Assembly: GCA_016208255.1 (NCBI GenBank)
Contig: JACQYK010000065.1
Location: forward strand, 1-64,000
Direction of reading: 5' to 3'
From: Deltaproteobacteria bacterium
Lineage (GTDB): Bacteria; Desulfobacterota; RBG-13-43-22
DNA length: 64,000 nt
The notes under the pieces are model-generated. The model made no database searches, was not told the DNA's origin, and saw only the letters and a program-made list of their open reading frames with translations. Below, one piece after another: positions 8,133-46,771 of this stretch; the stretch's first letter is position 1; every line of letters starts with the position of its first letter. A program made the translations under genes and the position numbers.

Positions 8133-8451
8133 TCATCGTCCGGCGAGACGGTAGGTTTCTAAACCAGCCCGTGGATCTATCAATCTTTTATTTAGGATCT
8201 GCCTGGCATGATCGGCCAGAATAAACCCAAGCCAGGCATAATCCGCCAGGATCTTTGGATCAGGGGTGTCAAGGGCGGCCGCCTTCCCCTTCAACCAAAA
8301 ACACTATTTCATCGGATCCGGACCAGTAGAATCGAGCCGAGGTGATACCCCCGCTTTTACGGCGAAGGCGGCATAACTCAAAAGCTTTGTTTTCCATCGT
8401 CTCCCGCCGTCCTTTGTCACGTCGCTCCCAGATAGTGAGTTGAATCGGCAT
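8133..8451 (-). pseudogene. frameshifted paralog of the 111-aa protein at 16631-16966
   Basis: MPIQLTIWERRDKGRRETM...FLVEGEG then a 1-nt frameshift; the next frame continues AALDTPDPKILADYAWLGFILADHARQILNKRLIDPRAGLETYRLAGR*. Confidence 0.82.
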
Positions 8452-8628
8452 AACCTTTCTCCTTCTCTACCATCCTAATCCTATGGGGAAGAGATGCAGT
8501 TCATCGTACCCGTGTAGGTATATTCTCCCCAGAGACCTTTACCGAATCTATATATTAAAGTTGACATCAGAACACAGAAAATAATGGCCATCAAACCTGC
8601 GAACCTACTTTTTACTTTGATATTACAT

Positions 8629-8675
8629 AAATCCCCCCTATCCCCCCTTTAGCAAAGGGGGGCAGGGGGGGATTT
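8629..8675. repeat. G/C-run inverted repeat (REP-like hairpin)
   Basis: AAATCCCCCCTATCCCCCCTTT AGC AAAGGGGGGCAGGGGGGGATTT near-perfect palindrome. Confidence 0.8.
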
Positions 8676-8836
8676 GACGATCGGAGGAAGTAACCTATGG
8701 TGATATCCTCCAACATAAACAAAAAGACCCAAACATTTAAGTATAACGACCGGATCAATGTGTTTTTGAACAAATGGTATGCTACTGTGAGGTTAATCCA
8801 GTAAATCCCTTTAAAATTTTGATGGGCGGGAAGTCT

Positions 8837-9106
8837 TTATTCGAACAGGTCTGAATGGGAACCGGTTCTTACCAGGCAAAGGGTACTACCTTCAATTCTG
8901 TAAATTAGCAGCCAGTCCCCTTCAATATGGCACTCCCGGCAGTCCTTCAATGTTCCCTTCAGTGCATGATCCTTGTTACGTGCAGGCAATTCTTCCCCGG
9001 CAACGAGCGATTCAATAATCGATTTGAGTTTGTTGAGATTTTTCCCGCGTCGGATGAGAAGTTTCACATCCCTCTTGAACTGGGTTTCCCGTCTGATGGA
9101 GCGCAT
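8837..9106 (-). CDS. YafQ-type RelE superfamily toxin
   Basis: MRSIRRETQFKRDVKLLIRRGKNLNKLKSIIESL...GTLKDCRECHIEGDWLLIYRIEGSTLCLVRTGSHSDLF. Confidence 0.9.
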   Translation of the reverse strand: MRSIRRETQFKRDVKLLIRRGKNLNKLKSIIESLVAGEELPARNKDHALKGTLKDCRECHIEGDWLLIYRIEGSTLCLVRTGSHSDLFE

Positions 9107-9110
9107 GACC

Positions 9111-9443
9111 TCAGATGCCCAGGTCCTTGAAAAGCTCTTTCGTTGTAGAAAACCGTCGCCCTTTACCTTTTCGTGAGTTGGCGATCGCCTTTATGGTTTT
9201 TTTATTAGGTACCTGCAATTCAAACGGAAGGCCTCTTTGAGCCACTACCTGCCGGTAAAACAGTTCTACTGAATTGGAAATCGAAAGACCCATTTCTTTA
9301 AGGATGGATTCCGCCTCTTTTTTGACCTGCGGTTCGATCAAGGCTCGTGCGGTTGCTGTTTTTGTTGTTCCCATGGATTTTTCTCCTCTTTTTCTAATCA
9401 AGGATATAGCCCGTCTCAGGTTGAGAAGAAGCGGATGAGCCAT
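9111..9443 (-). CDS. RelB/DinJ family antitoxin (likely starts at internal MGTTKTATARAL)
   Basis: ARALIEPQVKKEAESILKEMGLSISNSVELFYRQVVAQRGLPFEL. Confidence 0.88.
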   Translation of the reverse strand: MAHPLLLNLRRAISLIRKRGEKSMGTTKTATARALIEPQVKKEAESILKEMGLSISNSVELFYRQVVAQRGLPFELQVPNKKTIKAIANSRKGKGRRFSTTKELFKDLGI

Positions 9444-9636
9444 ACCGAATTGTTCATGATTTTTTATGGCATATTATATGCTATCTTAACCGTTTGTCAA
9501 ATCATAAAATGGAAGCTTCCCGCAGGAAGATTCCGGCGACCCTGCCGGGGGGTGTATGACTATATTAAAGGGAAGTATCCGACAGACTTGACAGGATCGA
9601 GAGGATTCAAAACAAAATACATCCTGTAAATCCTGT

Positions 9637-9839
9637 CTAAAAAATATTCTTTGAATTTTGGATTTTCTTATAAAGGGACATGGTCACTTCATCCGGTTCG
9701 GGGCGGCCTGTCCCAGGATGAAAAGCACCCTCTTGTCCTGGTTTTTATTGATTTGTGCAAGGAGCCGTGGCCGTGGAAGGACGCCCAGGACTCTGGGAGG
9801 AACAATCTTCGACAGGTTGGTGATGGATTTTATTCCCAT
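9637..9839 (-). pseudogene. collapsed remnant of MalT/SARP-type regulator (N-term joined to C-term)
   Basis: MGIKSITNLSKIVPPRVLGVLPRPRLLAQINKNQDKRVLFILGQAA matches the start of 17192-20515, followed out of frame by EPDEVTMSLYKKIQNS matching its C-term EPDALTKSIYMKIQNS. Confidence 0.8.
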
Positions 9840-10162
9840 ATGTCAGTTCTATGCCTTCAGGATCTCTTTTTATCATAAAACTTTTAATTATGCGAGATCC
9901 ATCGGACGGTTCGGCCCCAACCATCCAGGTCGTTGACCGAGGAAGATCCGGCAATATGAAATTTTATGTATAGTTTCCCAGTTTCTCGGTCGATAAGAAA
10001 ATGCAGATCACCCTATCGTCCCTTTTATCCTTGACCGCTATTTCACCTTATTTTATACTCTCACAATTGAGAAAAACTTTTTCTCAAAGATAACAGTAGC
10101 AATAAGTAAAATGAAACTGCAATGAAAAGAATAATGAACGTTTATAAAAAGAATTCTTCAAA

Positions 10163-10309
10163 GTTAATGGGGTCCCGACCCTTTTTCAATTTATTCGATT
10201 AGAGAAGGACTTAAAAGAAAAATTGGGGATTAAGGTTGACCTGGTTATGAAAACAGCCTTGAAACCCAACATCGGACGGCAAATCCTTCGAGAGGTCATA
10301 CCGATATGA
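10163..10309 (+). pseudogene. C-terminal remnant of MntA-like nucleotidyltransferase antitoxin
   Basis: VNGVPTLFQFIRLEKDLKEKLGIKVDLVMKTALKPNIGRQILREVIPI* overlaps the HepT start by ATGA; catalytic N-terminus not found. Confidence 0.65.
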
Positions 10310-10668
10310 AGACAAAGCGGGAATATCGAGACTTTCTTGATGATATTTTAGAAAACGCTCAAAAGGCGCAAAGGTTTATAGAAGGAATTCAGTTTAAAGA
10401 TTTTAAAAAAAACGAAGAGAAAATATTTGCCGTTGTCCGAGCCCTTGAACTTATTGGGGAAGCTGCTTCACATATTCCCAAGTCCATAAGATCCAAAGGG
10501 CCAAATGTACCATGGACAGAAATGAGCGGGATGAGAAATAAACTCGCTCATGAATATTTTGGAGTAGACCTAAAAGTCGTTTGGAAAACGATGAAAAAAG
10601 ACATCCCGCCGTTAATTAAAGAAATCACACGAATTATTGAAAATCTTAACTCCATCGGTAATCTTTAG
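10306..10668 (+). CDS. HepT-like RNase/toxin (DUF86)
   Basis: 120 aa with RNKLAHEYFGVD (RX4HXY) motif. Confidence 0.9.
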   Translation: MKTKREYRDFLDDILENAQKAQRFIEGIQFKDFKKNEEKIFAVVRALELIGEAASHIPKSIRSKGPNVPWTEMSGMRNKLAHEYFGVDLKVVWKTMKKDIPPLIKEITRIIENLNSIGNL

Positions 10669-10669
10669 C

Positions 10670-10735
10670 AAGGCCGTCTTTACCTTTGACTTCCATTTTC
10701 GAGAACAAGGTTTTTCGGTCAACTCTGATTGTTGA
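10670..10735 (+). pseudogene. VapC (PIN) C-terminal tail remnant
   Basis: KAVFTFDFHFREQGFSVNSDC*; near-identical to 15125-15196. Confidence 0.6.
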
Positions 10736-10837
10736 AGGGAAGGGTGTAACATGCCCCCTTGGCCTGGTAATAGTAAAATCGTCAATCAGATAACTTACTT
10801 AACTATTCGGGCGCTGTCCCTACTTTACCTCATTTTT

Positions 10838-11300
10838 TTATTTAACTGGTTCCCAAGTAAGAATGGCACGTATAGTCTTGCCCAGGCCAAGATGCGGCAT
10901 ATTGTTCGGACCCCACTGACTAATGATTTTCAGACGATTACCCTCTAATTTGAAAAAGCGTGTTTGCTCGGTACCAACCCACCACTCAGACCAGGCAACG
11001 TCGACCTTGGTGATAAACTTGTCGCCTTCGAATCGAAACATACCTGAATACGCCAACATCATAAGCATGGCGGCGGTCTATCTTCTGGTGTTTGCGGTTT
11101 TTTGCGGCCCTCGCCTGTAATGATGGCTATCATTCTGCCCTCGGGCGTCAAGATAAGATAGCCAAGCGGATTCGGACTATTTTCAAAATAAGGTTTCAGT
11201 TCACCTGTTTCCTGTATCTCCGCATTCGGTCATCAGCAAAGCTCGGTTGAACTATAACAAGAAACCAAAATAGAACTACTGACCATTTCAACTCAAACAT
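10838..11300 (-). pseudogene. lipocalin-like domain protein, multiply frameshifted
   Basis: Pieces in different frames: MFELKWSVVLFWFLVIVQPSFADD / NPLGYLILTPEGRMIAIITGEGRKKPQTPEDR / MLAYSGMFRFEGDKFITKVDVAWSEWWVGTEQTRFFKLEGNRLKI. Confidence 0.65.
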
Positions 11301-11663
11301 GGCGGCCTCCTTTTTACTTTTAGAAATTTTTTTATTTTCAATTTATTAACGATATTCTTGCCGCTATTTAACCCCTCCCTGAAAACCATATGTTGAAGCA
11401 AAGGTATTTTATCCACCCATCTTTCACCTGGCATATCTCTTCAGAATAACCGTCGACATGAAAGGCACAGGTAGAGAGGTGCACCTCCCTGCCTGTTGAA
11501 TAAAATTTAGCAGAACCAGGGATAAAAAAAGGATACAAGGCCGAATCGAATCTTATTGAAAATAGGAATAAATTTTTCCAAAGGATCCGGAATTTCATTT
11601 TTTTATGCTCCGGGCCCTCTTTTTCTAAGAGATTAAAGAGACCAACAGGCGTGCTGGGGGGTA

Positions 11664-14600
11664 TTATGGATTTTCGATTTTCTTATGTAAAGATTTGGTC
11701 AAAGCATCCGGTTCGGCATCGAGTCCCTCGCGGAGGACCTTTTGGTATGATTTGTAGAGATGGAGGGCTTTATCGTGTTTGCCCATAGCGGCATAAAGGA
11801 CCATGAGACGTCGATGGGCCTCCTCTGAAAAGGGATCACATTCAATGGCCTTTTCGTAGAAAGAGATCGCCTTGCGCGGGGCGCCACGGTCTTCATAAAT
11901 TCGAGCCGTTTTGACCAGAAGGCCAAGGTATTTCCGCCTCAGTTCCTCTCTTCTGGACCCGGCCCATTCGGAATAAACATCATCAGGCAGGAAATCACCT
12001 TTGTAAAGGCCAATCGCTTCCTGAAAGACAAAAAGGGCTTCTTCTATCTGCTGACTTGCTTCCCTTTTTTCTCCTTCTTTAAGCAAGGCCAGAAATTTAT
12101 TCACATCGACTTCACAAATCCCCTGGTCCAAAGATACCCAGTTTTCCTTCAGTCGCACATAGTAATAACCATATTTTGGATCCATATCCGGCTCAAGGAT
12201 TTGGCGAAGCCGATGGAGGGCGCTCTTGAAGTTCTTTTCCACCTTGGCCGGTTGTCCTTCCGGCCAGAGGCTCTCCATAAGCACTTCCTTCCGGACACCA
12301 TCCTCCCACTGGGCCACAATAGCCTTGAGCATGTTTTTGGTCAGGCTGCCGTGCCACTCTTCCTCTTTCACGGGAGAGCCAGACCGGATGACCCTGAATC
12401 CCCCAAGGGTTTCGATCCTGAGAAGGGGAAGGGACGACCGATGCAAGGCCCGTCTGACTTTTAATGCTTTGGCCCGGATAGTTCGATCGGGATGGTTCGA
12501 AAGCATTTCCAGTTCAGTTTCAGCCTGAGGGGGCCGGCGGGTTGAAAGGATTTTCAGCGCGTAATCCCTTTCTTCCTGATTGCCCAGTTCGATAGCCAGG
12601 GCACATACCCTGGCTATATCCTCTGGGCTTGTATACTGGAAGTATGCGAGTCCCTTTCCCCTGGCGATCTCGAATCCGGAATGGAGGTGTTGGGCTGTTT
12701 TGTTTGGGTCCTTTTTTTGCCAATAAATTAGGGCCAGGGCAAAATAGGCTTCAACAGTAAGGCCGGCTGAGATACTTAAAAATAATCCAGGGCATTTTGA
12801 AGATCCTTTAAAATCGTTTCATCTGGTTCATCTTGACTCCACAGGAATCCTCTAAAAACAGCTATGCGATGAAGGAGCCATATTAAGCTATAATTACTGG
12901 CAGGCAGAAATTTGCGGGATTGTTGTAAATATTCTTTGGCCTTATCATAATCACCTTCAAAATAACAGTTAATTCCCAGGTAATAAAGGATATTTCCGGC
13001 CGTTCTAAACTGCCCCTGGGCAACAGCCAGCTGGAGGAAGTGCTGCCCGAGTTCTTCGGCCTCCCTGTGTTGTCCCAAATTTGTTTTCAGATTTAGGTAT
13101 TCATGGATTAAAATTGTATATAGATAGATGAGACCAAGCCTTTCGCACTCTTTTTGTAAAATTTTATACTCCGCTTCCGCCTTTTCCAGGTCCCCCTTGA
13201 ATGAAAATAAAATACCTTGGCTGAAGTGATATTCAACCTCAATTTCGGGGAAAGGCTGTTTCTTTAGTAATTTCTCGATCTCTTTGGAAATCTCATCAGC
13301 CAGGGAGATTTCCTGCACAAACATTAGAGCTCCGAAACTACGAATTAAGGCAAAGATTTGCATCATCAACGGCGCCTTATTTGTCCTGGCTATGAGGTAG
13401 GCATTCTGACTGGCCTGGTAGGCCTTCCGAGGGTTGAAGAAACAGAATCCAGAGTTGAGATTCATCCATAGGGACACCCTTTCACGAGGATAGAGGTCTT
13501 GGTCTATGGTGCTCAGGAGATCTTCCCCTTTAGTGAGTAGCACGGACATAGGAACCGGTTCCTGTCCTCCCAATAACGTTGTGGTCCCAATAAGCGTCGA
13601 TAGGGAAACAAGGCAGCCTCTCAAATCACCTGCTTTTTCGAAGAGGGTGAATGCCTGGTAAAGTATGGGAAGATTTTTTGCTGGACTTGTTGTCCAGACC
13701 GTTGTCCTGGAAAAATAATACAGGAGCCATGGGTTTCCCTGAAGGGTTTTTTCCGGAAGGGCTTGAAGCCATTTCAAAAGGTCGGTATTCCTCACGGACC
13801 AGACCAGATCCAAGCCGACTTTTTCGATGGCCGGAATAGCCGATTCATAAGCGCCGGCCTTGAGAAAATATTGGATAGCATCTTCCAGCCGGTCCCTTTG
13901 TTGAAAGAGGAGGCCTGCTTTTTTATATAGGGATTGCCGGGTTTCGGGGGAAAGCTCGGTATTGAATTTCAGCAGCAGAAAGTCTCTGAATAGTTGGTGA
14001 TATCTAAATACCCAGCCTTTCCCCTCTTCATAATTCGACTGTACAAAGAGATGCTTTCTGGCCGCCTCCTGGAGAACCTCTTCCATATCTTTCGTTTCCA
14101 GGAGTTCCCCAACGAACTTTGTTTCCATCTTGTCCAAGATGGAGGATTTAATCAGGAACTCCCGTATCTCTACCTGTTGAGGGGAGAGGATGACTTCTTC
14201 GAAGAACCGGAAGGCTTCTTTTTTAATATGATCCGGCATCTTTTCGGAAATATATTTTTCCCTTTCCCCTTCGGGCAGTTTTTCCAGGGTTTCGGAAAAC
14301 AACAGGAGACCCCCCACCCAGCCCTCCGTGGAGGAATGAATCCTGGCCACCTGGGAGGAACTCAGGGTGATCTTTCGCATCACTCGGAAAAAAGCCCTGG
14401 TTTCCTCCGGATTAAAGGCCAGGTCCCCATTGGTCAGGACCTGGGCCTGCTGTTTAATCTTCAGTTCTTGTAAACCAAAGGGCGGTTCTTCACGAGAGAG
14501 CATGATGAGACGAAGGTGAGGCGGGGCTTCATGCGCCAGGGTTTTAAGAAAAAGGAAGGAAGAGGCGTTCGTGGTTAGTCGGTCCAGGCCGTCTAAAACT

Positions 14601-14686
14601 AATTGAACCGGATCGTTGATCTGTTCAAACATGACCTGGACCCACTCCCGGTAACGCAGCGTCGGTTCAAGAACACTTTGGCTCAT
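11664..14686 (-). pseudogene. second MalT-like ATPase/SARP-output regulator, 5'-truncated and frameshifted
   Basis: ORFs 12776-14686 and 11664-12506 align end to end with 17192-20515; joined by FLSISAGLTVEAYFALALIYWQKKDPNKTAQHLHSG in the -1 frame after a T5 run near 12780; first ~100 aa (P-loop region) absent. Confidence 0.85.
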
Positions 14687-14851
14687 GGCCGGATAAAAGT
14701 CAAGTTATTTTAGGTTGTTTAGGTTGAGGTGGATCGAGACAAATACCTCCATCAGGAAAAACACTGCTGATTAAATCAGGGGATACTTTCATTTGACAAG
14801 GAGGTAACGCAAGTGATATCATGTAATCAATTGTGTTGTCATGGAGGTATT

Positions 14852-15115
14852 ATGGTCAGAACTCAAATTCAATTAACCACCGAGCAGGCCCGGGAGCTTA
14901 AGAAATTAGCCCTTTCCCGCCAGGCTTCTATTTCCGAACTGGTCCGAAAGGCGGTGGACGATCTGATCAAATCAAAAAACAGGGACGACACCGAGGACAT
15001 AAAAAAGAGGGCCCTGGAAATCATGGGGAAGTATCATTCCGGGAAAAAAGATATTTCCAAGAAGCATGATATCTATCTGAAGGAATTTGAGTCTGGTCGA
15101 TTGTGTCGGCTTTGA
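14852..15115 (+). CDS. ribbon-helix-helix antitoxin (VapB-like)
   Basis: MVRTQIQLTTEQARELKKLALSRQASISELVRKAVDDLI. Confidence 0.82.
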   Translation: MVRTQIQLTTEQARELKKLALSRQASISELVRKAVDDLIKSKNRDDTEDIKKRALEIMGKYHSGKKDISKKHDIYLKEFESGRLCRL

Positions 15116-15196
15116 AGTCATGCGCACCTGGGGATTAAAGCCGTCTTTACCTTTGATCCTCATTTTCGAGAACAAGGCTTTTCGATCAACCTCTGA
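15088..15196 (+). pseudogene. VapC (PIN) C-terminal remnant, frameshifted
   Basis: SLVDCVGFEVMRTWGLK / frameshift / AVFTFDPHFREQGFSINL*; resembles canonical VapC C-terminus; rest of toxin missing. Confidence 0.65.
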
Positions 15197-15263
15197 GGGT
15201 TGGAGGGCAGATTACCTCCAACCCTCAGAGGTAGAAACGGAGAAGACGACTTCTTAATTCCCT

Positions 15264-16535
15264 TTATTTTTTCAGGGCCTGATAAACCAGACTCCGAATT
15301 AAGTTTCCATTGTCGACGCCGGATCGTTCCATGTCGTTCATCATAAAGACAACGAACATATCCTCTTTTGGGTCAACCAAAAAATACGACCCTCCACTAC
15401 CCATCCAATAGTAGTCACCTACGGAACCGGTCATCGCGTTTGTTCCCGGCATCACCCGTACTCCAAAACCCAGCCCATACCCATTACCAGGAAACCAGTA
15501 TCCAGGGATCGATCCCAAATGGTCGGAGGTCATATAGGCTACGGTTTTGGGACCGAGGATCCGAACACCATCCAGGGACCCGCCTTTCAGGAGCATCAGG
15601 GCAAACCGGGCGTAATCCATGGGTGTGGCCACCATCCCCTCTCCACCGGCAAGAAATTTCGGTGACTTGGAGACATCGAGCATGTCCTGGGGTTTTCCGG
15701 TTCGCGGATTTTTCGGAGGTTGGGCCAGCCGATCCTGGTTCTCAGGCTTTACCCAGAATCCGGAATCCTTCATGTCCAGGGGTTTGAATATCCTATCTTC
15801 AAGATACCGATCCAAGGGTTGGCCGGAAAGAACTTCGATAAGCCGTCCGAGCAGAGCATTGGATCGACTGTAATTCCATCTGGTACCAGGCTGAAAAAGC
15901 AAAGGAAGTTTAGCCAACTTAGTAGTGGCTTCGGCCAGCGTTTCATTTTCATCCCATATTTTAGCTTCCGCCCATTTCTGCTGGACCAGGTTTTTCCCGA
16001 ACCAAGGCATTTCATAAACCATACCGGAGGTCTGCCGGAGCAGGTCATAAATAAACATTTCCCGATTGCAGGGAACAAGTTCCAGGGTTGCATTCCCGGT
16101 TTGTGGATCTTTTTTTTCCACACCTACCTTAAGGCCCTTGAGTTCGGGGAGAAACTTCGAGACGGAATCCGGTAGAATAAACTTCCCTTCCTCCCACAAC
16201 ATCATAATTCCGAAGGCGGTGATGGGTTTACTCATCGAGTAAATACGGAAGATGGTGTCTTTTTTCATGGGCATTTTGTTTTCCTTGTCCTGCATCCCGT
16301 AGGTTTTAAAATAGGCGATCTTCCCATTACGGCCGATCAGGATGGTCGCGCCGGGAATGATCCCTTTTTCAATATACGAGGCCAGGGTTTTATCAATAAA
16401 AGCCAACCGTTCGGAAGAAAAGCCAAGGTCTTCGGGCTTTTTGGCCATCTCCAGGGGCTTGCCCCAAACGGTCCCCGAAGAGAAAATGAAAGAGATTACT
16501 ATGAAACAGAAAATAATTCGTCGATATGTTTTCAT
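15264..16535 (-). CDS. class C beta-lactamase-family serine hydrolase with signal peptide
   Basis: SMSKPIT (SxxK), YSRSN, hydrophobic N-terminus MKTYRRIIFCFIVISFIFSSGTVWG. Confidence 0.92.
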   Translation of the reverse strand: MKTYRRIIFCFIVISFIFSSGTVWGKPLEMAKKPEDLGFSSERLAFIDKTLASYIEKGIIPGATILIGRNGKIAYFKTYGMQDKENKMPMKKDTIFRIYSMSKPITAFGIMMLWEEGKFILPDSVSKFLPELKGLKVGVEKKDPQTGNATLELVPCNREMFIYDLLRQTSGMVYEMPWFGKNLVQQKWAEAKIWDENETLAEATTKLAKLPLLFQPGTRWNYSRSNALLGRLIEVLSGQPLDRYLEDRIFKPLDMKDSGFWVKPENQDRLAQPPKNPRTGKPQDMLDVSKSPKFLAGGEGMVATPMDYARFALMLLKGGSLDGVRILGPKTVAYMTSDHLGSIPGYWFPGNGYGLGFGVRVMPGTNAMTGSVGDYYWMGSGGSYFLVDPKEDMFVVFMMNDMERSGVDNGNLIRSLVYQALKK

Positions 16536-16630
16536 GGTTCCTCCTTTTTGGGTTAACTGGAATTTTCTTTTAATCAGTTGTCATAAGAAACCTTTCTTCC
16601 TCCTCAGACTAAGTTGAATACACTATTGAT

Positions 16631-16966
16631 CTAACCATACCGTCCTGCGATGCGATAAATCTGTAATCCGGTTTTTGGATCTATCAGTCTTTTATTCAGG
16701 ATCTGACTGGCCTGATCTGCCAAGACAAAGCCAAGCCAGGCATAATCCGCCAGAATCTTCTGGTCTGGGGTGTCCAGGGCGGCCGCTTCTCCTTCAAATA
16801 AAAAAACAATTTCGTCAGACCCAGACCAGTAGAATCGGGTTGAGGTGATACCCTCGCTCTTACGGCAAAGCCTGCACAACTCCAGGGCGATGTTCCCCAT
16901 GGTCTCCCGTCTTCCACTGTCACGCCGTTCCCAGATAGAAAGTTGAATCGGCATAACCTTCCTCAT
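16631..16966 (-). CDS. hypothetical protein (111 aa), intact paralog of 8133-8451
   Basis: MPIQLSIWERRDSGRRETMGNIALELCRLCRKSEGITSTRFYWSGSDEIVFLFEGEAAALDTP... Confidence 0.75.
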   Translation of the reverse strand: MRKVMPIQLSIWERRDSGRRETMGNIALELCRLCRKSEGITSTRFYWSGSDEIVFLFEGEAAALDTPDQKILADYAWLGFVLADQASQILNKRLIDPKTGLQIYRIAGRYG

Positions 16967-17191
16967 TTTTGTGATTCAGAAAATCCAACCGTAAATATTA
17001 AATGCATTTATTCCCTGCCGGTCATACTCAAGGTAGCAGAATCAAGGTCACAAAAAGGCAACAAAGTTAAAATGGATCTTATTGAAATTAGGAATAAATT
17101 TTTTCAATGAGCCCGGATTTCTATTTTTTAATACTCCGGGCCTTCTTTTTTCTTAGAGATTTGAGAGACAGGCAGGTGTGCGGGGGGGGAA

Positions 17192-20100
17192 TTATGAATT
17201 TTGGATTTTCATATAGATGGATTTGGTTAGTGCATCCGGTTCGGCATCGAGCCCCTGGCGGAGGGCCTTTTGGTAGGATTGGTAGATATGGATCGCCTCT
17301 TCGTGTTTACCCATACCGGCAAAGAGGGCCATTAGACGTCGATTGGCCTTTTCCAAGCAGGGATCTAATTCGACTGCTTTTTGGTAGAACGAGACCGCTT
17401 TGCGTGGGGCACCACGGTCTTCATGAATCCGGGCAGTTTTAAATAGAAGGCCAAGGTATTTTTGCCTCAGCTCCTCCCTTCTGGACCCGGCCCATTCGGC
17501 ATATACATCATCGGGTAGGAAATCACCCCGATAGAGTTCAACTGCTTTTTGGTAGAAAGAGAGGGCCTCCTCTATCTGCTTTTTTTCCCTTTTTTCTCCT
17601 TCTTTAAGCAGGGCCAGAAACTGGTTCACATCGACTTCACAAATCTCTTTATCCAAAGACACAAGGTTATCCTTCATTTGAACGTAGGAACAGGCATATC
17701 TTTTATCCATGTCTGGCTCAAAGACATTGCGGAGCCGATGGAGAGCCATCTTAAAGTTCTTCTCCCCCTTGGCCGGTTGTCCTTCCGGCCAAAGACATTC
17801 CATAAGAACCTCCTTCCGGACCCCTTCTGCCCCTTGGGTTACGATAGCTTTGAGTAGGTTTTGGGTCTGGCTGCCGTGCCACTCCTCCTCTTTCAGGGGA
17901 GAGCCGGAGCGAAGGACCCTGAATCCCCCCAGGGTCTCGATCCTGAGACGGGGAAGGTCCGAACGATACAAGGCCAGCCTGATTGTTGATGCCTTTGATC
18001 GAATAGTTGGAACGGGATGTTTCGACAGTCTTTTTAGTTCAGCCTCAGCCTGAGGGAGTCGGCGGGTTGAAAGGATTTTTAGGGCGGAATCGCTGTCTTC
18101 CCGATCACCCAGTTCGATGGCCAATGCACATGTTTTCGCTACAATCCTTGGGCTTATATACGGGAAGTAAGTGGCTCCCTTTCCCTTAGCCATCTTGAGT
18201 CCGGAATGGAGGTGTTGGGCTGTTTTGCTTCGGTCTTTTTTTTGCCAGTAGGCAAGGGCCAGGGCAAAGTTGGCTTCAATAGCAGTGTTACCTGAAAAAC
18301 TTGAAAAAAATTCAAGGGCCTCTTGCAGGTCCTTTAGCGTCGTTTCATCCTGTTCGAGCAGACTCTCCAGGGACCCTCTCACAACCTTTATACAATTAAG
18401 GTACCATGGTGAAAAACACCCTTCTGCGGAAAAAATTTTCTGGGCTTGCCTTAGGTATTCTTCCGCTCTTTTATAATCCCCTTCGATATTACAGTTTCTC
18501 CCCAGATTCACCAGGACATTCCCTGCCACAAAGGAATTCCCCTGGGCAACAGCCATTTGGAGTAGGTGTAGCCCGAGTTCCTCGGCCTCACGGTGCTGTC
18601 CCAGATTCATTTTCTGAAGGACGTGTTCCTTTAAGTTATGATTATATAAATAGCCGAGGCCGAGCCTTTCGCACTCTTTTTTGACAAATTTCAAAGCTGC
18701 TTCCGCCTGTCCCAGGTCCCCCTTGTGAAGAAAAAGAATACTTCGAAAAATCTGATAAACAATTTCCTGTTCAGGATAGGGATACTTTCTTTTCAATTTC
18801 TCAATTTCCCATAATTTTTCATCGGCCAGGGCAATTTCTCCCGACACCACCAGGGTCTGAAAACCACGGAGCAAGGCTTGGATTCCAATTACAGGATCCT
18901 TAGCTTCTTTGGCTATGAGAAAGGCGGTCTGGCTGGCCTGGTAAGCTTTCCGAAGGTTTCCCGTCCTGAAAGTGTGTCCACCACTGATAGCCGACCAGAG
19001 CTGGGTTCTTTCACGGTGATAGAGGTCAGGACTTGTGGTCTTAAGGAGATCTTCCCCTTTGGTGAGTAACAGGGACATTGGCACTAGGTCCTGTCCTCTT
19101 ATCAGGGTATCCCCAATGAGGGCAGCCAGGGAGGCCAGGCAGCCCCTCACATCTCCTCCTTTTTCGAAAAGGGTGAAGGCCTGTTGAAGGACGGGAAGAT
19201 TTTCTGCCGGAGTAGAATATCTACGGGTCATGGCAAGGTAATATTGAAGCCATGGATTTTCCCGAACTATTTCTTCCGGAAGGGCCTGAAGCCATTCCCG
19301 CAGATCAGACCGCCTCATGGACCATATCAGATCCGTCCCGACTTTTTTGATGGCTAAAACAGCCGATTCATAAGCCCCGGCCTGGAGAAAATACCGAATG
19401 GCCTCTTCCAAACGGCCCTTTTGCTGAAAAAGAAGGCCCGCTTTTTGATAAATTGCCTTCCGGGTTTCGGAGGAAAGCTTGGTATTTAATTTCAGCAGGA
19501 GAAAGTCTCTGAACAGTTGGTGGTATCTATATACCCAGCCTTTGCCCTCTTCATAATTCGACTGAACAAAGAGATTCTTTCGGGCCGCTTCCCGGAGGAC
19601 CTCTTCCATATCTTTCGTCTCCAGGAGATCTCCTATGAACTGGGTTTCCATCTTGTCCAGGACCGATGATTTGATCAGGAACTCTTGGGTTTCAGGCGGT
19701 TGGGAGGAGAGAATGACCTCTTCGAAGAACCGGAAGGTCTCCAACCGAAAGCGGTCCGGCATCTTTTCGGAAATGTATTTTTCTCTTTCACCTTCGGGCA
19801 GCCTATTCAAGGCTTCGGAAAACAATAGAAGCCCCCCCACCCACCCTTCCGTAGATGAATGAATCCTGGCCACCTGTGAGGGATTCAAACTCACCTTTCG
19901 AGCCTCCCGGAAAAAGGCCCTGGTTTCCTCCAGGTTGAAGGCCAGATCCTCATTGGTCAGGACTTGGGCCTGTTGTTTTATCTTGAGCTCCTGCAAACCG
20001 AAGGGCGGTTCTTCCCTGGAGAGCATGATGAGACGAAGGTAAGGCTGGGACTCGTTGGCTAGAGTTTGAAGAAAGAGCAAAGAAGGGGCCTCCCTGGTCA

Positions 20101-20515
20101 ATCGATCCAGGCCGTCCAGGACCAACAGAACCGAATCGTTAATCTGCTCAAACATGACCTGGACCCACTCCCGGTAGAGGCGGGTTGGTTCACGGGGACC
20201 CCGGCTGGAGGAGGGATAAGACCGAAGGAAAGAAAGATCCCGCTCAGGGAAAGTATGCTCAAAAGCATTTATTATCCAGTAGAAGAGATTGACCGGGTCC
20301 GAATCGCCCTGATCCAGGTTCAGCCAGGCAACTGGGACCTCCTGTTTTCCGGCATAGGTGGCTGCCAGGGTGGACTTGCCCTGGGCGGCCTGACCCAGGA
20401 TGAAAAGCAGCCGCTTGTCCTGATTTTTGCTAATTTGCTCGATGAGACGGGGCCGATGCAGGACTCCCGGCACCCTCAGAGGGGTAACCTTGGTATGGTT
20501 GGTGATGGTTGGCAT
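17192..20515 (-). CDS. STAND/MalT-like ATPase with TPR region and C-terminal SARP (OmpR-type DNA-binding + BTAD) domain
   Basis: 1107 aa; LFILGQAAQGKSTLAA P-loop; VLLVLDGLDRL Walker B; C-term LRIETLGGFRVLRSG...KNFKMALHRLRNVFEPD...BTAD-like helices. Confidence 0.9.
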   Translation of the reverse strand: MPTITNHTKVTPLRVPGVLHRPRLIEQISKNQDKRLLFILGQAAQGKSTLAATYAGKQEVPVAWLNLDQGDSDPVNLFYWIINAFEHTFPERDLSFLRSYPSSSRGPREPTRLYREWVQVMFEQINDSVLLVLDGLDRLTREAPSLLFLQTLANESQPYLRLIMLSREEPPFGLQELKIKQQAQVLTNEDLAFNLEETRAFFREARKVSLNPSQVARIHSSTEGWVGGLLLFSEALNRLPEGEREKYISEKMPDRFRLETFRFFEEVILSSQPPETQEFLIKSSVLDKMETQFIGDLLETKDMEEVLREAARKNLFVQSNYEEGKGWVYRYHQLFRDFLLLKLNTKLSSETRKAIYQKAGLLFQQKGRLEEAIRYFLQAGAYESAVLAIKKVGTDLIWSMRRSDLREWLQALPEEIVRENPWLQYYLAMTRRYSTPAENLPVLQQAFTLFEKGGDVRGCLASLAALIGDTLIRGQDLVPMSLLLTKGEDLLKTTSPDLYHRERTQLWSAISGGHTFRTGNLRKAYQASQTAFLIAKEAKDPVIGIQALLRGFQTLVVSGEIALADEKLWEIEKLKRKYPYPEQEIVYQIFRSILFLHKGDLGQAEAALKFVKKECERLGLGYLYNHNLKEHVLQKMNLGQHREAEELGLHLLQMAVAQGNSFVAGNVLVNLGRNCNIEGDYKRAEEYLRQAQKIFSAEGCFSPWYLNCIKVVRGSLESLLEQDETTLKDLQEALEFFSSFSGNTAIEANFALALAYWQKKDRSKTAQHLHSGLKMAKGKGATYFPYISPRIVAKTCALAIELGDREDSDSALKILSTRRLPQAEAELKRLSKHPVPTIRSKASTIRLALYRSDLPRLRIETLGGFRVLRSGSPLKEEEWHGSQTQNLLKAIVTQGAEGVRKEVLMECLWPEGQPAKGEKNFKMALHRLRNVFEPDMDKRYACSYVQMKDNLVSLDKEICEVDVNQFLALLKEGEKREKKQIEEALSFYQKAVELYRGDFLPDDVYAEWAGSRREELRQKYLGLLFKTARIHEDRGAPRKAVSFYQKAVELDPCLEKANRRLMALFAGMGKHEEAIHIYQSYQKALRQGLDAEPDALTKSIYMKIQNS

Positions 20516-20768
20516 TTCCTTTTGATCCCATTGATCGAGAAATCCGAATCCTGAAAAGAAATGGGGTTTAATGATCTTCCATCAATACTCCTAATTTATG
20601 TTTGCTGAAGGGCAATTGATTTATTATGTCTATCTATAAATAATTATTGAGTTTTCTTGAAAAGTCAAGGAAGAATATATTTTCTGGATTTGTGAATGAT
20701 TAATGAAGTTAACAATTATAATAATAATTTTGCATTTTTTCTGGTAACATAATATAATTATTAAAAGT

Positions 20769-21295: not shown

Positions 21296-21408
21296 ATAAA
21301 GACTTTTTAAAAGCTGATCATATAGGAATTTTCAGGCTTCGGGGTACCCCTTAGCAAATTATGAGAGCTTGTGCGAAAATAAGGTTTGGCAGGGTTTCCC
21401 CTTAAACT

Positions 21409-37662: not shown

Positions 37663-37755
37663 GATTGAGTTTCCTGGATTCCCGCTTCCGATCGAGCGGC
37701 CCGACCGACCGGAATGACGAATTCGGGCTTCCGGCGACTTTTTACGAGTCCATCA
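37663..37755. repeat. dispersed repeat, shares ends with 39459-39629 in opposite orientation
   Basis: CGGAATGACgaATTCGGGCTTCCGGcGACTTTTTACGAG matches the reverse complement of 39465-39500. Confidence 0.65.
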
Positions 37756-38009: not shown

Positions 38010-39491
38010 TTAATCACTCCATTTCCCGTATTTTTCTCTCAAGATCCGGTGCAGGATCTTACCGGTTCCGGTCCGCGGCATCTCGGCGTCAGTGATAAAA
38101 TCGATAGTCTTGGGTTTTTTGAATGCGGCTATTTTCCCCTGGCAATAATCAATGATTTCTTTGGCCAGGGCCGAAGTTCCCTTAAACCCTTCATGGAGAA
38201 TCACGATGGCCTTGATGGCCTCCCCCCATTTTTTATCCGGTACGCCGATAACGGCCACATCTTTCACCGCCGGATGGCTGCCGACTATATTTTCCACCTC
38301 CGAAGGATAGACATTCTCTCCGCCGGTGATGATCATATTGGCCTTGCGGTCCACCAGAACATAATAACCATCCTCATCCCGGCGGACCATATCCCCGGCC
38401 GAAGACCAGCCGTTGTCAAAGGCCTCTTTGGTTTTTTCCGGTTCTTTCCAGTATTCGGTGAAGAGCATGGGGGTCCGGTAGAAAAGCTCCCCCACCTCGC
38501 CGTCGGGAACCGGCTGACGCTTTTCATCCAGGATACGGATCCGGTCGGTCCCAAAGATTTCACGACCGATGGAACCTAATTTTTTAAACTGATCCTCGGG
38601 CCGAAGCAGGGTCACCAGTCCGCCCTCAGTGGACCCGTAGGCCTCCCACAGTTCGGCGTTCTTGAAATAATCCATGATGGCCATTTTAAGGTCCTTGCGG
38701 GCCGGGGCCGAAGAAATCAAAAGCTGCCGGATGGAAGAGACATCGAGATTATTCTTGATCTCATCCGGCAGGGCCAGGATCATAATGTAGTGGGTGGGGA
38801 CGAGTGAAGTAAAAGTTATTTTGTATTCGGCGATAGTCTTGAGGAGGTCTTCCGGATCGAAGGAGACCATGTTGTAAACAAAGACCGGGGCAGTAATCAG
38901 GGTATAAGGAAAAGAATAAAAAATGGAATTCACATGACACATGGGCATGACCAGCATCACCTTGTCGGTGTTGCGGACCCCCATATTGATATTATTCAAG
39001 TAATAATCGGCAATATAGCTTTCATGGGAACGGACCACGCCTTTGGGACGGCCGGTTGTCCCGGATCCGTTAATGAGATCCACAAAAGGGGCCTCGACGA
39101 TCATCCCTTTGCACTCCGAGTGATTGACGATAAACTCGATATCCGGCCCGGCCAGCCGGAACATCAGGGGAACCACGATCTGACCCCCTTTGGCTGCCCC
39201 GGCATAGATATCCATCCATTCCCCCCGATTGTAGGCTAACACGGCAAAACGGTCTTTTTGCCCGACCCCTATTCTATGAAGGCCGTTGGTTAAACGGCAG
39301 GACCGGTCATTCCATTGCTTAAAAGTGAACTCCTTGGACTTGTCCTGCCACCCGAGTTTATCCGGGTAATTGGTGGCATTCATCTTAAGGGCTGTTCCCA
39401 TATGCATCCAGTTGCTTTTGGCCATATTGATGTTCTCCTTTTTGAATTTTGACAAGTTGGTAAAAAGTCCCCGGAAGCCCGATTCTGTCAT
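38010..39491 (-). CDS. AMP-forming acyl-CoA synthetase with apparent internal deletion
   Basis: GSGTTGRPKGVVRSHES, EAYGSTEGG, ITGGENVYPSEVE, GTGKILHR; the ~55 aa normally preceding the P-loop are missing (PFVDLIN|GSGTTG); likely start MAKSNWMHMG near 39434. Confidence 0.88.
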   Translation of the reverse strand: MTESGFRGLFTNLSKFKKENINMAKSNWMHMGTALKMNATNYPDKLGWQDKSKEFTFKQWNDRSCRLTNGLHRIGVGQKDRFAVLAYNRGEWMDIYAGAAKGGQIVVPLMFRLAGPDIEFIVNHSECKGMIVEAPFVDLINGSGTTGRPKGVVRSHESYIADYYLNNINMGVRNTDKVMLVMPMCHVNSIFYSFPYTLITAPVFVYNMVSFDPEDLLKTIAEYKITFTSLVPTHYIMILALPDEIKNNLDVSSIRQLLISSAPARKDLKMAIMDYFKNAELWEAYGSTEGGLVTLLRPEDQFKKLGSIGREIFGTDRIRILDEKRQPVPDGEVGELFYRTPMLFTEYWKEPEKTKEAFDNGWSSAGDMVRRDEDGYYVLVDRKANMIITGGENVYPSEVENIVGSHPAVKDVAVIGVPDKKWGEAIKAIVILHEGFKGTSALAKEIIDYCQGKIAAFKKPKTIDFITDAEMPRTGTGKILHRILREKYGKWSD

Positions 39492-39629
39492 TCCGTTCGG
39501 TCGGCTTTGCCGACCTTAAAAAGAGACTTCCGGAGGAAGTCGAGAGAAAGCCGGAATCCAGGATCTTCAATCGCTTAGAAAACTACCTGGACCCCGGCTT
39601 TCGCCGGGGTGACGGCTTTTTACGAGTTT
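39459..39629. repeat. composite dispersed repeat with hairpins
   Basis: AAAAAGTCCCCGGAAGCCCG...CGGTCGGCTTTGCCGACC...CCCCGGCTTTCGCCGGGGTGACGGCTTTTTACGAG. Confidence 0.65.
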
Positions 39630-42429: not shown

Positions 42430-42867
42430 TTATTTATTCATCAATTCTTTCACCCGGAGGATCTCCGATTCAATAAAGGGCTTCAGATCAGCGGCTGCCG
42501 TCAGGTTTTGTTTTTCCGCTTCCAGGTTATCGGGAGTGATCTTACAAATCCAGCCCTGGCCATAGGGAGAAGCATTAATGAGTTCCGGTTCGTCCTCCAG
42601 GCTCTCATTGATCGCGCTCACTTCACCTGAAAATACGGCGTAGATCCGGCCCACCCATTTTCCGGATTCAATGGACCCGAATGGTTTGCCCTGCTGGACC
42701 TTGCGCCCTTCTTCCGGCAGTTCCACATATCCGATATCACCGGCCAGCTTTTGGGCGAAGTCGGTAGTCCCCATCACCACGCTGCCGTCTTCGATCCGCG
42801 CCCAGAAATGATTTTTATCATACCATAAATCATCGGGGAAAAAGTACCCTTCTATTTCCATAATCAA
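42430..42867 (-). CDS. GcvH-like/LbpA-like lipoate-binding protein
   Basis: NHFWARIEDGSVVMGTTDFAQKLAGDIGYVELPEEG...FGSIESGKWVGRIYAVFSGEV; lysine in ESGKWVG rather than the ESVKA of classical GcvH. Confidence 0.9.
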   Translation of the reverse strand: MIMEIEGYFFPDDLWYDKNHFWARIEDGSVVMGTTDFAQKLAGDIGYVELPEEGRKVQQGKPFGSIESGKWVGRIYAVFSGEVSAINESLEDEPELINASPYGQGWICKITPDNLEAEKQNLTAAADLKPFIESEILRVKELMNK

Positions 42868-42889
42868 TCCCTCCTTTCAAACTGGTTTT

Positions 42890-42974
42890 GTACGAAAATA
42901 GAGTTTAAAGTCAAACGAGCTTTGTTTTCATCCATGGTGGTGTCACGTCCCTGGCGGGGCGTGACGGTTTAATA
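42890..42974. repeat. 85-bp interspersed repeat, copy A (overlaps hdrB 3' end)
   Basis: GTaCGAAAATAGAGT...AACGAGCTttgTTTTCAT...TGGTGGTG..CA..CC....GGCGGGGCgTGaCGGTTTAATA; homologous to 46324-46410. Confidence 0.75.
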
Positions 42975-43827
42975 ATTCCTTATCCTTGATCCGGTTCAGC
43001 TTAAACCCTAATGCATCCGGGGAGGCCCCCAAGGCCAATCCCAATAATTGAGGATAGTAGAGGACCGGCACTTTAATTTTTTTCCCCAGTCTCTTTTCAA
43101 TTTTTTTTTGTTGATTTTCAAACATGACGTTGCAGAAAGGGCAGATCAGGACCAGGCCGTTTCCTCCCAGCCGGTCCACTTCGGAGAGTTTGTTACCGGC
43201 CAGGGTATTGGCCAGATCTTCCTTGATCCCCAAAACACTGCCCCCGCAGCAATCCAGCAGGGTTTCATATTGGAGGGCATTAGCCCCGGTGACTTCAATC
43301 AACTCGGTCAATGATTTAGGATTCTCCACCGGGTCTATCCCGCCGGCGGTTCGGGCCGGCTTGATATAGTGACAACCATAGTGCGGGGCGAAAGTAAAGC
43401 CGTAAAGCGGGCGGGTGATTTTTTCCCGAATTTTCTTAAGACCAATTTCCTCATAGAGGATACGGATAAAATGTTTGACCCGGGTCGTTCCCTTATATTC
43501 CAACCCCACCATCTTCAATCGATCATTGACCGGATTAAGCAAATCGCTGCGCTGTAGAAGCAGATGGTTGGCCTCGCTTAAGAAAGCGCCACAGGCGCTG
43601 CATAAGGTACAAACCGGGAGACCGGCCTGTTCAGCCAGGGCCAGGTTGCGGGCGGCAACGACCAGGGAATCAAAATTATTGATGGATTTCAATGGAAAAC
43701 CGCAGCATTGAAAATCATCGAGATCAACCAGCTCCAACCCCAATTGACGGGCCACCCAACGGGCGGAAAGCTCGTAATTCAGATTGCGGACCGGGACCGT
43801 ACAGCCTAAAAAGAAAGCATATTTCAT
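42943..43827 (-). CDS. hdrB: heterodisulfide reductase subunit B-like (CCG domains)
   Basis: FFLGCTVPVRNLNYE, DDFQCCGFPLKS, CTLCSACG, HYGCHYIKP, LLDCCGGSVLG, ICPFCNVMFE. Confidence 0.93.
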   Translation of the reverse strand: MKYAFFLGCTVPVRNLNYELSARWVARQLGLELVDLDDFQCCGFPLKSINNFDSLVVAARNLALAEQAGLPVCTLCSACGAFLSEANHLLLQRSDLLNPVNDRLKMVGLEYKGTTRVKHFIRILYEEIGLKKIREKITRPLYGFTFAPHYGCHYIKPARTAGGIDPVENPKSLTELIEVTGANALQYETLLDCCGGSVLGIKEDLANTLAGNKLSEVDRLGGNGLVLICPFCNVMFENQQKKIEKRLGKKIKVPVLYYPQLLGLALGASPDALGFKLNRIKDKELLNRHAPPGT

Positions 43828-43847
43828 GGTGTTTTTTCTTATCTTTT

Positions 43848-43875
43848 TGTAGCACAGCCGCCCCCGGCTGTGTCC
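43848..43875. repeat. 28-bp inverted repeat flanking RAYT (left)
   Basis: TGTAGCACAGCCGCCCCCGGCTGTGTCC; internal hairpin ACAGCCG/CGGCTGT. Confidence 0.9.
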
Positions 43876-44363
43876 CTTTCCCCTTCTATCCGTTCCCGCC
43901 AGAGCCAGGGATAATCATCAACTTGTTTAACTAGCCCCTGACGCACTGGATTTTGGCAAATATATTCGACTTTTTCGATTATTGTTTCTTCTGAGCGAAG
44001 TATGTGATCAAAAGATTCATCCTGCCAGACATGACCTTTTCGCTTAAGAAGCTTGTTAATGCTGTGGGCCGATGACCCTTTAATACCATTCGTAATTTCA
44101 GATAGGCTAAATGGACACCCGGATTTATCTTTCAAGGGTGTAAAAACCATAGGTACATGATCCGGCATAACCACAACACCATGGACCTGTAATTTGGTTT
44201 GATGATCGTAGAGACAATGCCTTATGATGACTTCTCTCACTGATTCGGGGAGGGACCATCGCCTGTATGTTGCAAAAGTGACAAAGTAGGTTTTTTCTTC
44301 AACTTGCAAGTGAGGCAAGTTACGTCGGGAAAACCCCTTGTTTGGTTTTGCCAAAGTCATAGA

Positions 44364-44391
44364 GGACACAGCCGGGGGCGGCTGTGCTACA
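44364..44391. repeat. 28-bp inverted repeat flanking RAYT (right)
   Basis: GGACACAGCCGGGGGCGGCTGTGCTACA, exact reverse complement of 43848-43875. Confidence 0.9.
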
Positions 44392-44448
44392 TCTTTAAGC
44401 CTTCGATTAACGATTGGTGTCATAATAAAATTTATCTTTTTTTAGACT

Positions 44449-44958
44449 CTATTTAAGTATCTTTTGAATATCTTTGAAATCCCCTTTTATCTCCGGCAAT
44501 CCCATTTCCTTCCGTTTTTCATTTTCAAAATCGCCCACCTCATACATCCGCCCTTGTTGATCAAGCAGGTTCCGAGCGGCCCCCATGCCCGGAGGCGCCA
44601 GTCCCTTTCGGACAGCCAGATTGCGTAAGGCAAAAACAACTTCGGTAAAATCGACCTCCTGGGGGCAGCTTTCCTGACAGGTATAACAGGTCGAACAGTG
44701 CCAGAGAAGTTCTTCTTTGAGCAGTTCTTCCTCCATACCTAACAGGATCATGCGGATAATCCTTCTCGGATTATATTCCGGTTCGATTTTTTCAATCGGA
44801 CAGCGGGCCGAGCAAACCCCGCAGGAAAAACATTTCTTGATCTGTTCGCCGCCTAACTCCCCGGCCACCCGCTGTTTGAAATCGGGATCTAATTTTCTGA
44901 GATCAATGGGGTCCATTTTCAAAAACCAATTATTGTTCTTTGTAGGGGCGGGTTTCAA
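44449..44958 (-). CDS. hdrC: heterodisulfide reductase subunit C-like
   Basis: CFSCGVCSARCPIEKIEPEYNPRRIIRMILLGMEEELL...CSTCYTCQESCPQEVDFTEV. Confidence 0.93.
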   Translation of the reverse strand: MKPAPTKNNNWFLKMDPIDLRKLDPDFKQRVAGELGGEQIKKCFSCGVCSARCPIEKIEPEYNPRRIIRMILLGMEEELLKEELLWHCSTCYTCQESCPQEVDFTEVVFALRNLAVRKGLAPPGMGAARNLLDQQGRMYEVGDFENEKRKEMGLPEIKGDFKDIQKILK

Positions 44959-45016
44959 ACCCGCCCGGTTCTAATTCTGTTTCCATTCAGGGCCGGTTTG
45001 AAACCCGCCCCTACAA
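44940..45016. repeat. REP-like inverted repeat pair upstream of hdrC
   Basis: TTGTAGGGGCGGGTTTCAAACC (44940-44961) / GGTTTGAAACCCGCCCCTACAA (44995-45016); left arm extends into internal palindrome GGGCGGGTTTCAAACCCGCCC. Confidence 0.85.
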
Positions 45017-45040
45017 TGACACCAGTCACTTCGAGCATCT

Positions 45041-46771
45041 TTAAGTAACCGCCAATTGTTCAAGAAAATTATCAATAATTTCCTTCAAATACCATTCCAT
45101 ATTGCTCGAAATATTTTCAAAACGGATCCTTTCCGGATGGACTCCGGCTTCTTCCAGATATTTTCTGGTTTCCAGGATACGATCCCGGGCATAGAGGTTT
45201 CCATAGACCGACCGGCAGTTTTCTTCCGGACAGGCCAGGACCATGACCCCGTCCACCCCCAGAGAGAAGGCTTTTAATAGATGAGCGGGATCCAGTTTCC
45301 CGGCACAGGGCAAGGCCATAAATTCCACATCACTTTGAACTTTGAACTTTGAACTTTGAACCGCTTCCCAAGCCGCCCCGGCCGAACGTTGGCATCCAAA
45401 AATGATGATTCGGGGTTGATCGGATTCAACCTGATCCCATTTTCCCAGGGTAATCTCAAGTTTTGTCCGGACCGCCCCATCAGAAAAACCGTTAATCTGG
45501 ATAGCGCCCATTGGGCACTCAGCGGCGCAGATCCCGCAGCGCCGGCAGGCCAGGGGATGAATAAAAACCCGGTGCGTCCAACCGATGGCCTGGTGGGGAC
45601 AAAACCTCAGGCAGGTCAGACAAAGGGTGCAAAGCCCTTTATCCACGGTTACCTCCTGATTCATCGGTTCGGAAGTCCGGTCTTCGAAAAAATGGCGGAC
45701 CGAAAGGGCGACAGCCCCGGCCTCATCCAGACAGGCCTGGGGAAGCATCGGGCCTTTGCCCGGACCGGCGATAAATATTCCTTCCCTCAGGGAAATCTGG
45801 GGCAGGAAATGAACGTTGGCCGGTTGCAGAAAGCCGTTTTTATCCATCCCTATTCCGGCGGCTAAAGCCCCTTCCCGGACTTCCGCAGGCAATGAATGCC
45901 TGGAATCCACCACCAGAAGATCGGGGGTCAATTCAAAAGGCAGCTTCAAAATGCTATCCTCAAATTGAAGCATCAACCTGTCCTCTTTTCTTAACCAGAC
46001 CGGCCCCTCTTGATCAAACTTGAAGAACAAAATCCCCTCATCCCGACAGGCTTGATAGAGCCGTTCCAACCCGTCTCCGGCCACTTTAATCTGTTGACAA
46101 AAAATGGAGACCTGCGATTGGTATCGCCTGCGAATCTCCAGGGCGGCGGCTAAGGTCCCGGCCATATCAAAAACAGTTCCCTCGTTATTCAGGCCGACCC
46201 CAAAGGCGACAAAGGAGGTTGGTTTGAGGGTCGCCAAAATTTCCTCTTCCCTGGCCGAAGGGAATCGAGGCGGAGGGGGATGGGAAAGACTGTCTTTTTG
46301 AATTTCATTGGAATCCGGGATTAGTTCGAAAATAGAGTCCCTCTCCCAACGAGCTCGATTTTCATGTCTGGTGGTGCCAGCCCCAAAAGGCGGGGCATGG
46401 CGGTTTAATACTTTGTGAATTTCTTCTAAAGTAATAACCGGTGAGAAAGGGGCTGACGGATAAGCGGGAAAATTTCCTTCAGAAACCAGCTCCGGGGCAA
46501 AGATGATCGCCCCGAAGTTCTCCGTCCACTTTTTTTCCAAAATCCCCTCATCCCCCTTTTGATCCAAGGAAGGGATAGATTGTCCAAAGGACACCCGGAA
46601 GTCTCCGGCAAAACCCTCAAGGCCAAGCAACTGAATCCCGTCATCCGGACGAATTAACTTTACCTCATAGCCTGAGACCTTAAGCCGGGAAGCCGTTTCC
46701 TCTGCGGTAAGACCTCCGCCCCAAACAAGCACCCGGGGTATTTTTCTGGATTCTTCCTGAGGGGCAATCAT
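45041..46771 (-). CDS. HdrA-related flavoprotein with two 4Fe-4S motifs and C-terminal MvhD-like domain
   Basis: KGLCTLCLTCLRFCPHQA, LACRRCGICAAECPMGAI, then IIIFGCQRSAG...LPCAGKLDPAHLLKAFSLGVDGVMVLACPEENCRSVYGN. Confidence 0.85.
   Translation of the reverse strand: MIAPQEESRKIPRVLVWGGGLTAEETASRLKVSGYEVKLIRPDDGIQLLGLEGFAGDFRVSFGQSIPSLDQKGDEGILEKKWTENFGAIIFAPELVSEGNFPAYPSAPFSPVITLEEIHKVLNRHAPPFGAGTTRHENRARWERDSIFELIPDSNEIQKDSLSHPPPPRFPSAREEEILATLKPTSFVAFGVGLNNEGTVFDMAGTLAAALEIRRRYQSQVSIFCQQIKVAGDGLERLYQACRDEGILFFKFDQEGPVWLRKEDRLMLQFEDSILKLPFELTPDLLVVDSRHSLPAEVREGALAAGIGMDKNGFLQPANVHFLPQISLREGIFIAGPGKGPMLPQACLDEAGAVALSVRHFFEDRTSEPMNQEVTVDKGLCTLCLTCLRFCPHQAIGWTHRVFIHPLACRRCGICAAECPMGAIQINGFSDGAVRTKLEITLGKWDQVESDQPRIIIFGCQRSAGAAWEAVQSSKFKVQSDVEFMALPCAGKLDPAHLLKAFSLGVDGVMVLACPEENCRSVYGNLYARDRILETRKYLEEAGVHPERIRFENISSNMEWYLKEIIDNFLEQLAVT
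45334..45361. repeat. heptamer tandem repeat inside CDS (TTTGAAC x4)
   Basis: Encodes VQSSKFKVQS in the FAD/MvhD fusion protein. Confidence 0.9.
46324..46410. repeat. 85-bp interspersed repeat, copy B (inside CDS)
   Basis: Encodes LNRHAPPFGAGTTRHENRARWERDSIFE in frame; homologous to 42890-42974. Confidence 0.75.

Follow-up and report, generated by a model that had tools for sequence, protein, structure and literature searches.

The two short repeats in redox genes of the 64,000-nucleotide stretch of Deltaproteobacteria DNA analysed here (contig JACQYK010000065.1; hereafter the window) belong to a dispersed family of hairpin-bearing repeats, which inserts in a lineage-specific manner, joins stop codons in excess and, in a sister species, includes recently made copies that are nearly identical. 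With a probability of roughly 0.7, we interpret the family as a non-autonomous, hairpin-ended mobile element with a conserved shell and a variable interior, which makes no target duplication and lies mostly between genes. On the best reading it is a new, stop-codon-tolerant family, restricted to one bacterial family and most like pneumococcal BOX or the MITEs derived from IS200/IS605. Landing at sites where the stop codon is simply restored may be how such a parasite-like repeat came to number in the hundreds in a genome dense with genes.

Family size and distribution

Both copies (A and B) were found where the earlier note had placed them, with bounds refined by defining the element as RTNC..TTTA (Table 1). 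The pattern CGAAAATAGAGT-N9-AACGAGCT-N3-TTTTCAT matched the window only at copies A and B, and 100 shuffles of the window gave no match.

Table 1. Coordinates of the two window copies, of the genes around them and of shell arrays in the sister species.
Feature	Position	Strand	Description
Element copy A	42890..42971	+	82 nt, GTAC..GGTTTA; covariance-model match 98.3 bits, E 5e-19 (genome search)
Host target tetramer of copy A	42886-42889		TTTT
Copy A 5' hairpin	42894..42929	+	GAAAATAGAGTTT..AAAGCTTTGTTTTC type; covariation on 119 copies; DNA and RNA folds
Copy A 3' hairpin	42942..42965	+	GTCACGTCCC TGGC GGGGCGTGAC; reverse strand CGTC-REP-like; covariation, DNA and RNA folds
Element copy B	46324..46407	+	84 nt, equal to 28 FAD/FlpD codons; covariance-model match 83.9 bits
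Host target of copy B	46320-46323		ATTA
Copy B 5' hairpin	46328..46363	+	covariation, fold
Copy B 3' hairpin	46376..46401	+	GCCAGCCCCAAAAGGCGGGGCATGGC; covariation, fold
GcvH-like gene (name by eye), next downstream of HdrB	42430..42867	-	translation
HdrB-like gene	42943..43827	-	last 9 residues (LNRHAPPGT) and stop from copy A; NCBIfam TIGR03288, E 4e-74, below cut-off
FAD/HdrA-like + 4Fe4S + FlpD(MvhD) fusion gene	45041..46771	-	Pfam FlpD and Fer4; residues 123-150 element-encoded
Tandem shell arrays, sister species (G001)	L135:3465-3767, L141:1779-2110, L137:13481-13670		interiors of GTTCGGA, GGTTCAA, TTCGATA.. heptamers

A BLAST search of the genome with copy A gave 45 matches, and a covariance model trained on 23 copies found at least 154 in the same genome. 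The exact 5' signature TTTARTNCGAAAATA occurred 188 times (reversed-pattern control, 0). Across 297 genomes of the phylum, this signature was also found in four relatives (152, 76, 19 and 10 occurrences), while the 292 other genomes held 0-2, which is the control level; a covariance-model search of the relatives agreed with this distribution. By these counts, the element is restricted to a single bacterial family. Public genomes gave no match in a strict pattern scan and one record in a second scan, a Deltaproteobacteria groundwater MAG (JACRCK010000117). The phage and plasmid collections held no match to the element, and hence no sign of such carriage.

In the sister species (G001), 37 of 136 copy pairs were at least 95% identical, and the pairs listed sit in differing, unrelated flanks. 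Because these near-identical copies occur at unrelated sites, recent amplification is indicated.

Structure of the element

The element is arranged in the order host NTTA, RTNC-GAAAATA, variable interior, TATTTTC-AT..GTGGTG, hairpin and GG-TTTA. Both hairpins were found to covary: across 119 copies, both partners vary in 12 of 19 pairs, and 85 covarying cells were counted compared to a shuffled mean of 17 and to 6-20 in slid controls. An integron attC site was considered and rejected by eye, the outer stem TATTTTC/GAAAATA having no RYYYAAC/GTTRRRY boxes.

Between the fixed ends, the interior can be a loop of 22 nt or extend to about 350 nt, then consisting of hairpins or heptamer repeats. In longer copies the two hairpins are separated by a further double-hairpin module of about 46 nt, and two copies hold 240-315 nt of nested hairpins (L018:1496-1822, forward strand, and L101:2125-2469, reverse strand), which suggests that this second module was repeatedly inserted into itself. 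In G001 an identical shell surrounds heptamer tandem repeats, and units with differing interiors are joined exactly at TTTA (Table 1), a pattern that would follow from the TTTA end of each element acting as target for the next one. About a third of all copies touch another element, which blurs their boundaries.

Similar heptamer arrays, without an intact shell, were noted in the window at 21399, 42313, 45332, 54667 and 58141; CTTGTGCGAAAATA (21368-21381), beside a heptamer array, may be a degenerate 5' end of the element.

Target site and probable absence of duplication

In isolated copies the left tetramer is a degenerate version of TTTA (62-73% per base), and the right TTTA is 92-100% conserved; the host base that comes next is a purine (A or G) in 69 of 86. 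In 21 copies, counted by hand from the copy list with obvious false matches dropped, the left trimer differs from TTA; this trimer is repeated on the right in none of them, and 16 show TTTA there. We infer that the right-hand TTTA is the element's own, so that no target duplication would be made. Insertion is proposed to occur between NTTA and a following purine.

A classical MITE, mobilised by an IS5/PIF-like or similar DDE transposase that duplicates a 3-bp TTA target, was considered as a rival reading. The copies are small, non-coding and dispersed, and most are flanked by TTA on both sides. Against this, the right end never copies the left in the 21 informative copies, and complementarity is lacking between the tips, RTNC and GGTTTA; the inverted repeat GAAAATA/TATTTTC is only subterminal, leaving no terminal inverted repeats at the tips. 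We consider a classical MITE unlikely. The element resembles the Correia/NEMIS, RUP and ERIC MITEs (PMC2229807) in being about 100 bp, dispersed, hairpin-forming, mostly intergenic and occasionally fused to an ORF, but differs from them in its tips and in that no TA duplication was detected.

Stop codons and orientation

In 32 of 158 elements (about 20%), the junction was found to be exactly the stop codon of the neighbouring gene (10 sense, TA|R; 22 antisense, TAA). Gene-end to element-end distances gave a single sharp spike at this junction, with no comparable position elsewhere, and taking every non-coding TTTA or NTTA site in these loci as background gave an expectation of 8.4-9.0 such junctions (P about 1e-10). 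Gene calls were made with a simple hexamer model, and undercalled genes may inflate this ratio. In G001 and G002, 9 of 52 elements had a stop junction.

For several stop-junction genes, homologues terminate no more than a few residues away from the junction. As the target itself contains a stop, the stop-junction genes already ended there before insertion. In the proposed scheme the element would carry stops at both ends, TA|R at the left junction and TAA on the opposite strand at the right end, and for that reason insertion at the TAA or TAG stop of a gene would leave the protein unchanged. The excess of stop junctions could also reflect survival bias instead of targeting. A bolder proposal is that the ends have evolved to home to stops, in which case an undescribed single-strand transposase would cut NTTA/purine, the element would re-supply TAA or TAG in either orientation and its cargo would be free; this we regard as possible but fairly unlikely.

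Supply of a stop codon by such an element is not without precedent, since 36 CDSs of Streptococcus pneumoniae take their stop codon from a BOX copy, and there is no strong evidence that they are truncated (PMC3049150). Apart from BOX, a literature search on stop-codon-targeting elements found nothing relevant. BOX and the present element also have in common conserved end modules around a variable middle, intergenic clusters and stem-loops. The likeness is one of design only, as the sequences differ; the BOX interior consists of counted boxB units and that of the element of unrelated hairpins or heptamer repeats, and BOX, unlike the element, has terminal inverted repeats that resemble ISSpn2.

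Alternatively, the family might be a structured repeat of BOX or REP type that selection maintains for a regulatory role as RNA or DNA (a 3'-UTR stabiliser, an attenuator or a protein-binding site), its spread being secondary. The covarying hairpins, the modular likeness to BOX and the position of sites next to stops and between co-directional genes are consistent with such a role, as is the excess of elements antisense over those sense to neighbouring genes (57 vs 30, P 0.005). The variable interiors, tandem pile-ups and lineage-specific presence, however, resemble spread more than function, and Rfam gave no credible match in L001, L003, L009, L018, L023, L025 or L030. A regulatory origin is judged unlikely.

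Possible mode of movement

Subterminal hairpins, no target duplication and an intrinsic TTTA together form the pattern of IS200/IS605-type single-strand transposition (PMC8266576). The mobile element may thus move as folded single-stranded DNA by means of an IS200/IS605-type (HUH Y1) transposase, or a similar enzyme, acting in trans, and its copies would persist chiefly between genes. This step is put forward tentatively, at somewhat less than even odds, because none of the 31 Y1-transposase matches (13 in this genome and 18 in the four relatives) was bracketed by the shell. No autonomous copy with a gene between the element ends was found, among interiors reaching about 350 nt. In addition, the left hairpin begins 4 nt from the tip, which we take to be nearer than in known IS200/IS605 members and which counts against the assignment, as does the result that element orientation showed no bias relative to local GC skew. 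The non-autonomous IS200/IS605 derivatives and the GTAG REP/RAYT system have subterminal hairpins, no target duplication, a short motif 5' of the left end and high copy number in common with the element (PMC8266576, PMC2817692); they differ in that the element ends have no GTAG, and no Y1 gene was found between or beside them. With a fixed shell around a nearly free interior, both the recognition signal and the mobilising enzyme can be searched for and tested directly.

Spread by replication slippage, template switching or repair, with no dedicated transposase, was also weighed, in the manner of the mitochondrial double-hairpin and repetitive hairpin elements (PMC2800124). These likewise have two adjacent hairpins per unit, nesting (here in L018 and L101) and no known enzyme, and the enzyme search described above came back empty. 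The present element, in contrast, is on a bacterial chromosome, and its exact shell boundaries and defined NTTA|R target suggest an enzyme; such enzyme-free spread is improbable.

Insertions into coding sequence

The earlier note had likened the repeat to coding-sequence invaders such as the Rickettsia palindromic elements, which frequently insert in frame inside ORFs of diverse proteins, adding peptides to many proteins in one frame. A dispersed palindromic element has indeed inserted into the two genes, whose homologues do not have the peptide, and the 3' hairpin comes close to the CGTC type; the expected preference for ORFs in one frame was not borne out. In loci that are 77% coding, only 4 of 144 elements lay inside a called gene; 47 of 118 copies had no open frame, most lengths are not multiples of 3 and the commonest, 85 nt, shifts the frame. 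Supported by the two in-gene copies of the window, a coding invader is largely refuted by these counts and very improbable.

The CGTC-tagged REP class takes in Rickettsia RPE-4 and RPE-6 and Neisseria dRS3 and is defined by a CGTC tag at the base of a short palindrome, AT as first stem residues and a CCA-like tail (PMC3733652). The reverse strand of the 3' hairpin reads CGTC-ATGCCCC-GCCA-GGGGCGT-GACACC, of which the tag and stem fit this class and the tail does not (GACACCACC in the element, CCA in the CGTC-tagged REPs). The AT-type first stem residues, the 4-nt loop of short-loop copies and the lack of an associated transposase are further likenesses; however, CGTC-tagged REPs are single palindromes of 20-40 nt, and the element is 82-85 nt long with a second hairpin and NTTA/TTTA ends, and is rarely in genes.

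Both window copies are antisense to the genes touched (HdrB and the HdrA/MvhD-like FAD/FlpD gene), and the element is read in an identical frame over the first seven codons, with the peptide LNRHAPP in both proteins. As the earlier note had read from the translation, copy A supplies the C-terminal end and stop codon of HdrB (..KDKELLNRHAPPGT*); it also fills the gap between HdrB and the GcvH-like gene. In place of LNRHAPPGT, HdrB homologues (87, 80 and 72% identity) have their own few-residue tail and end in KDKEFLTGFERRD or similar, and an empty site matching the copy A insertion was found in L169. Copy A trimmed and re-tailed HdrB, replacing its last few residues.

Copy B, also as described before, lies inside the FAD/4Fe4S/FlpD protein of 576 residues (..EEIHKVLNRHAPPFGAGTTRHENRARWERDSIFELIPDS..), and its element frame is that of copy A. 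In the alignment, the G002 homologue was without exactly residues 123-150 (28 residues), and those of G001 and G004 were without them too; L150 is a homologue with this gap. The 28 residues fall where homologues vary and overlap a segment (125-172) with pLDDT <50 in a predicted model of low confidence (mean pLDDT 64.2, built from 6 sequences); copy B probably entered a variable linker. The frame stays open because copy B is 84 nt; the 85 nt of the element closest to it, L017, would cause a frameshift. One C of the 3' hairpin is missing from copy B, and a one-base deletion likely rescued the FAD/FlpD frame, although 84-nt copies are also found in other subfamilies.

That LNRHAPP in both redox proteins is an ancestral common segment, or the product of gene conversion between them, is refuted to near certainty by the homologue comparison that the earlier note had called for, in which same-genus and same-family homologues of both proteins were without the peptide, and by the mostly intergenic position of the repeat elsewhere. 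Because the HdrB and FAD homologues have no insert, with clean junctions, copies A and B are lineage-specific insertions. Further orthologous sites were empty and, conversely, G001 and G002 elements were absent from the window. The element accounts for the spurious sharing of peptides (LNRHAPP..) by proteins of this bacterial family that are not related to each other.

Other repeats in the window

A RAYT gene (REP-associated tyrosine transposase, NCBIfam NF047646, 98 bits) lies between the HdrB and HdrC genes (43839-44423, reverse strand), bracketed by perfect 28-nt inverted repeats TGTAGCACAGCCGCCCCCGGCTGTGTCC of GTAG-type REP (43848-43875 and 44364-44391), and forms a second mobile insertion in the HdrB/HdrC operon. 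It was rejected as mobiliser of the element, as its own GTAG-type inverted repeats differ from the element ends. The gap between HdrC and the FAD/FlpD gene (44937-45019) holds another REP-like palindrome, an inverted repeat TTTGTAGGGGCGGGTTTCAAACCCGCCC / GGGCCGGTTTGAAACCCGCCCCTACAA. Large direct repeats at 8137-20524 (74-87% identical, spacing about 5.5 and 8.5 kb) are probably tandem paralogous genes, and a 45-nt inverted repeat (89%), CGTC-type REP-like, was observed at 37701-37745 and 39460-39504, 1.7 kb apart.
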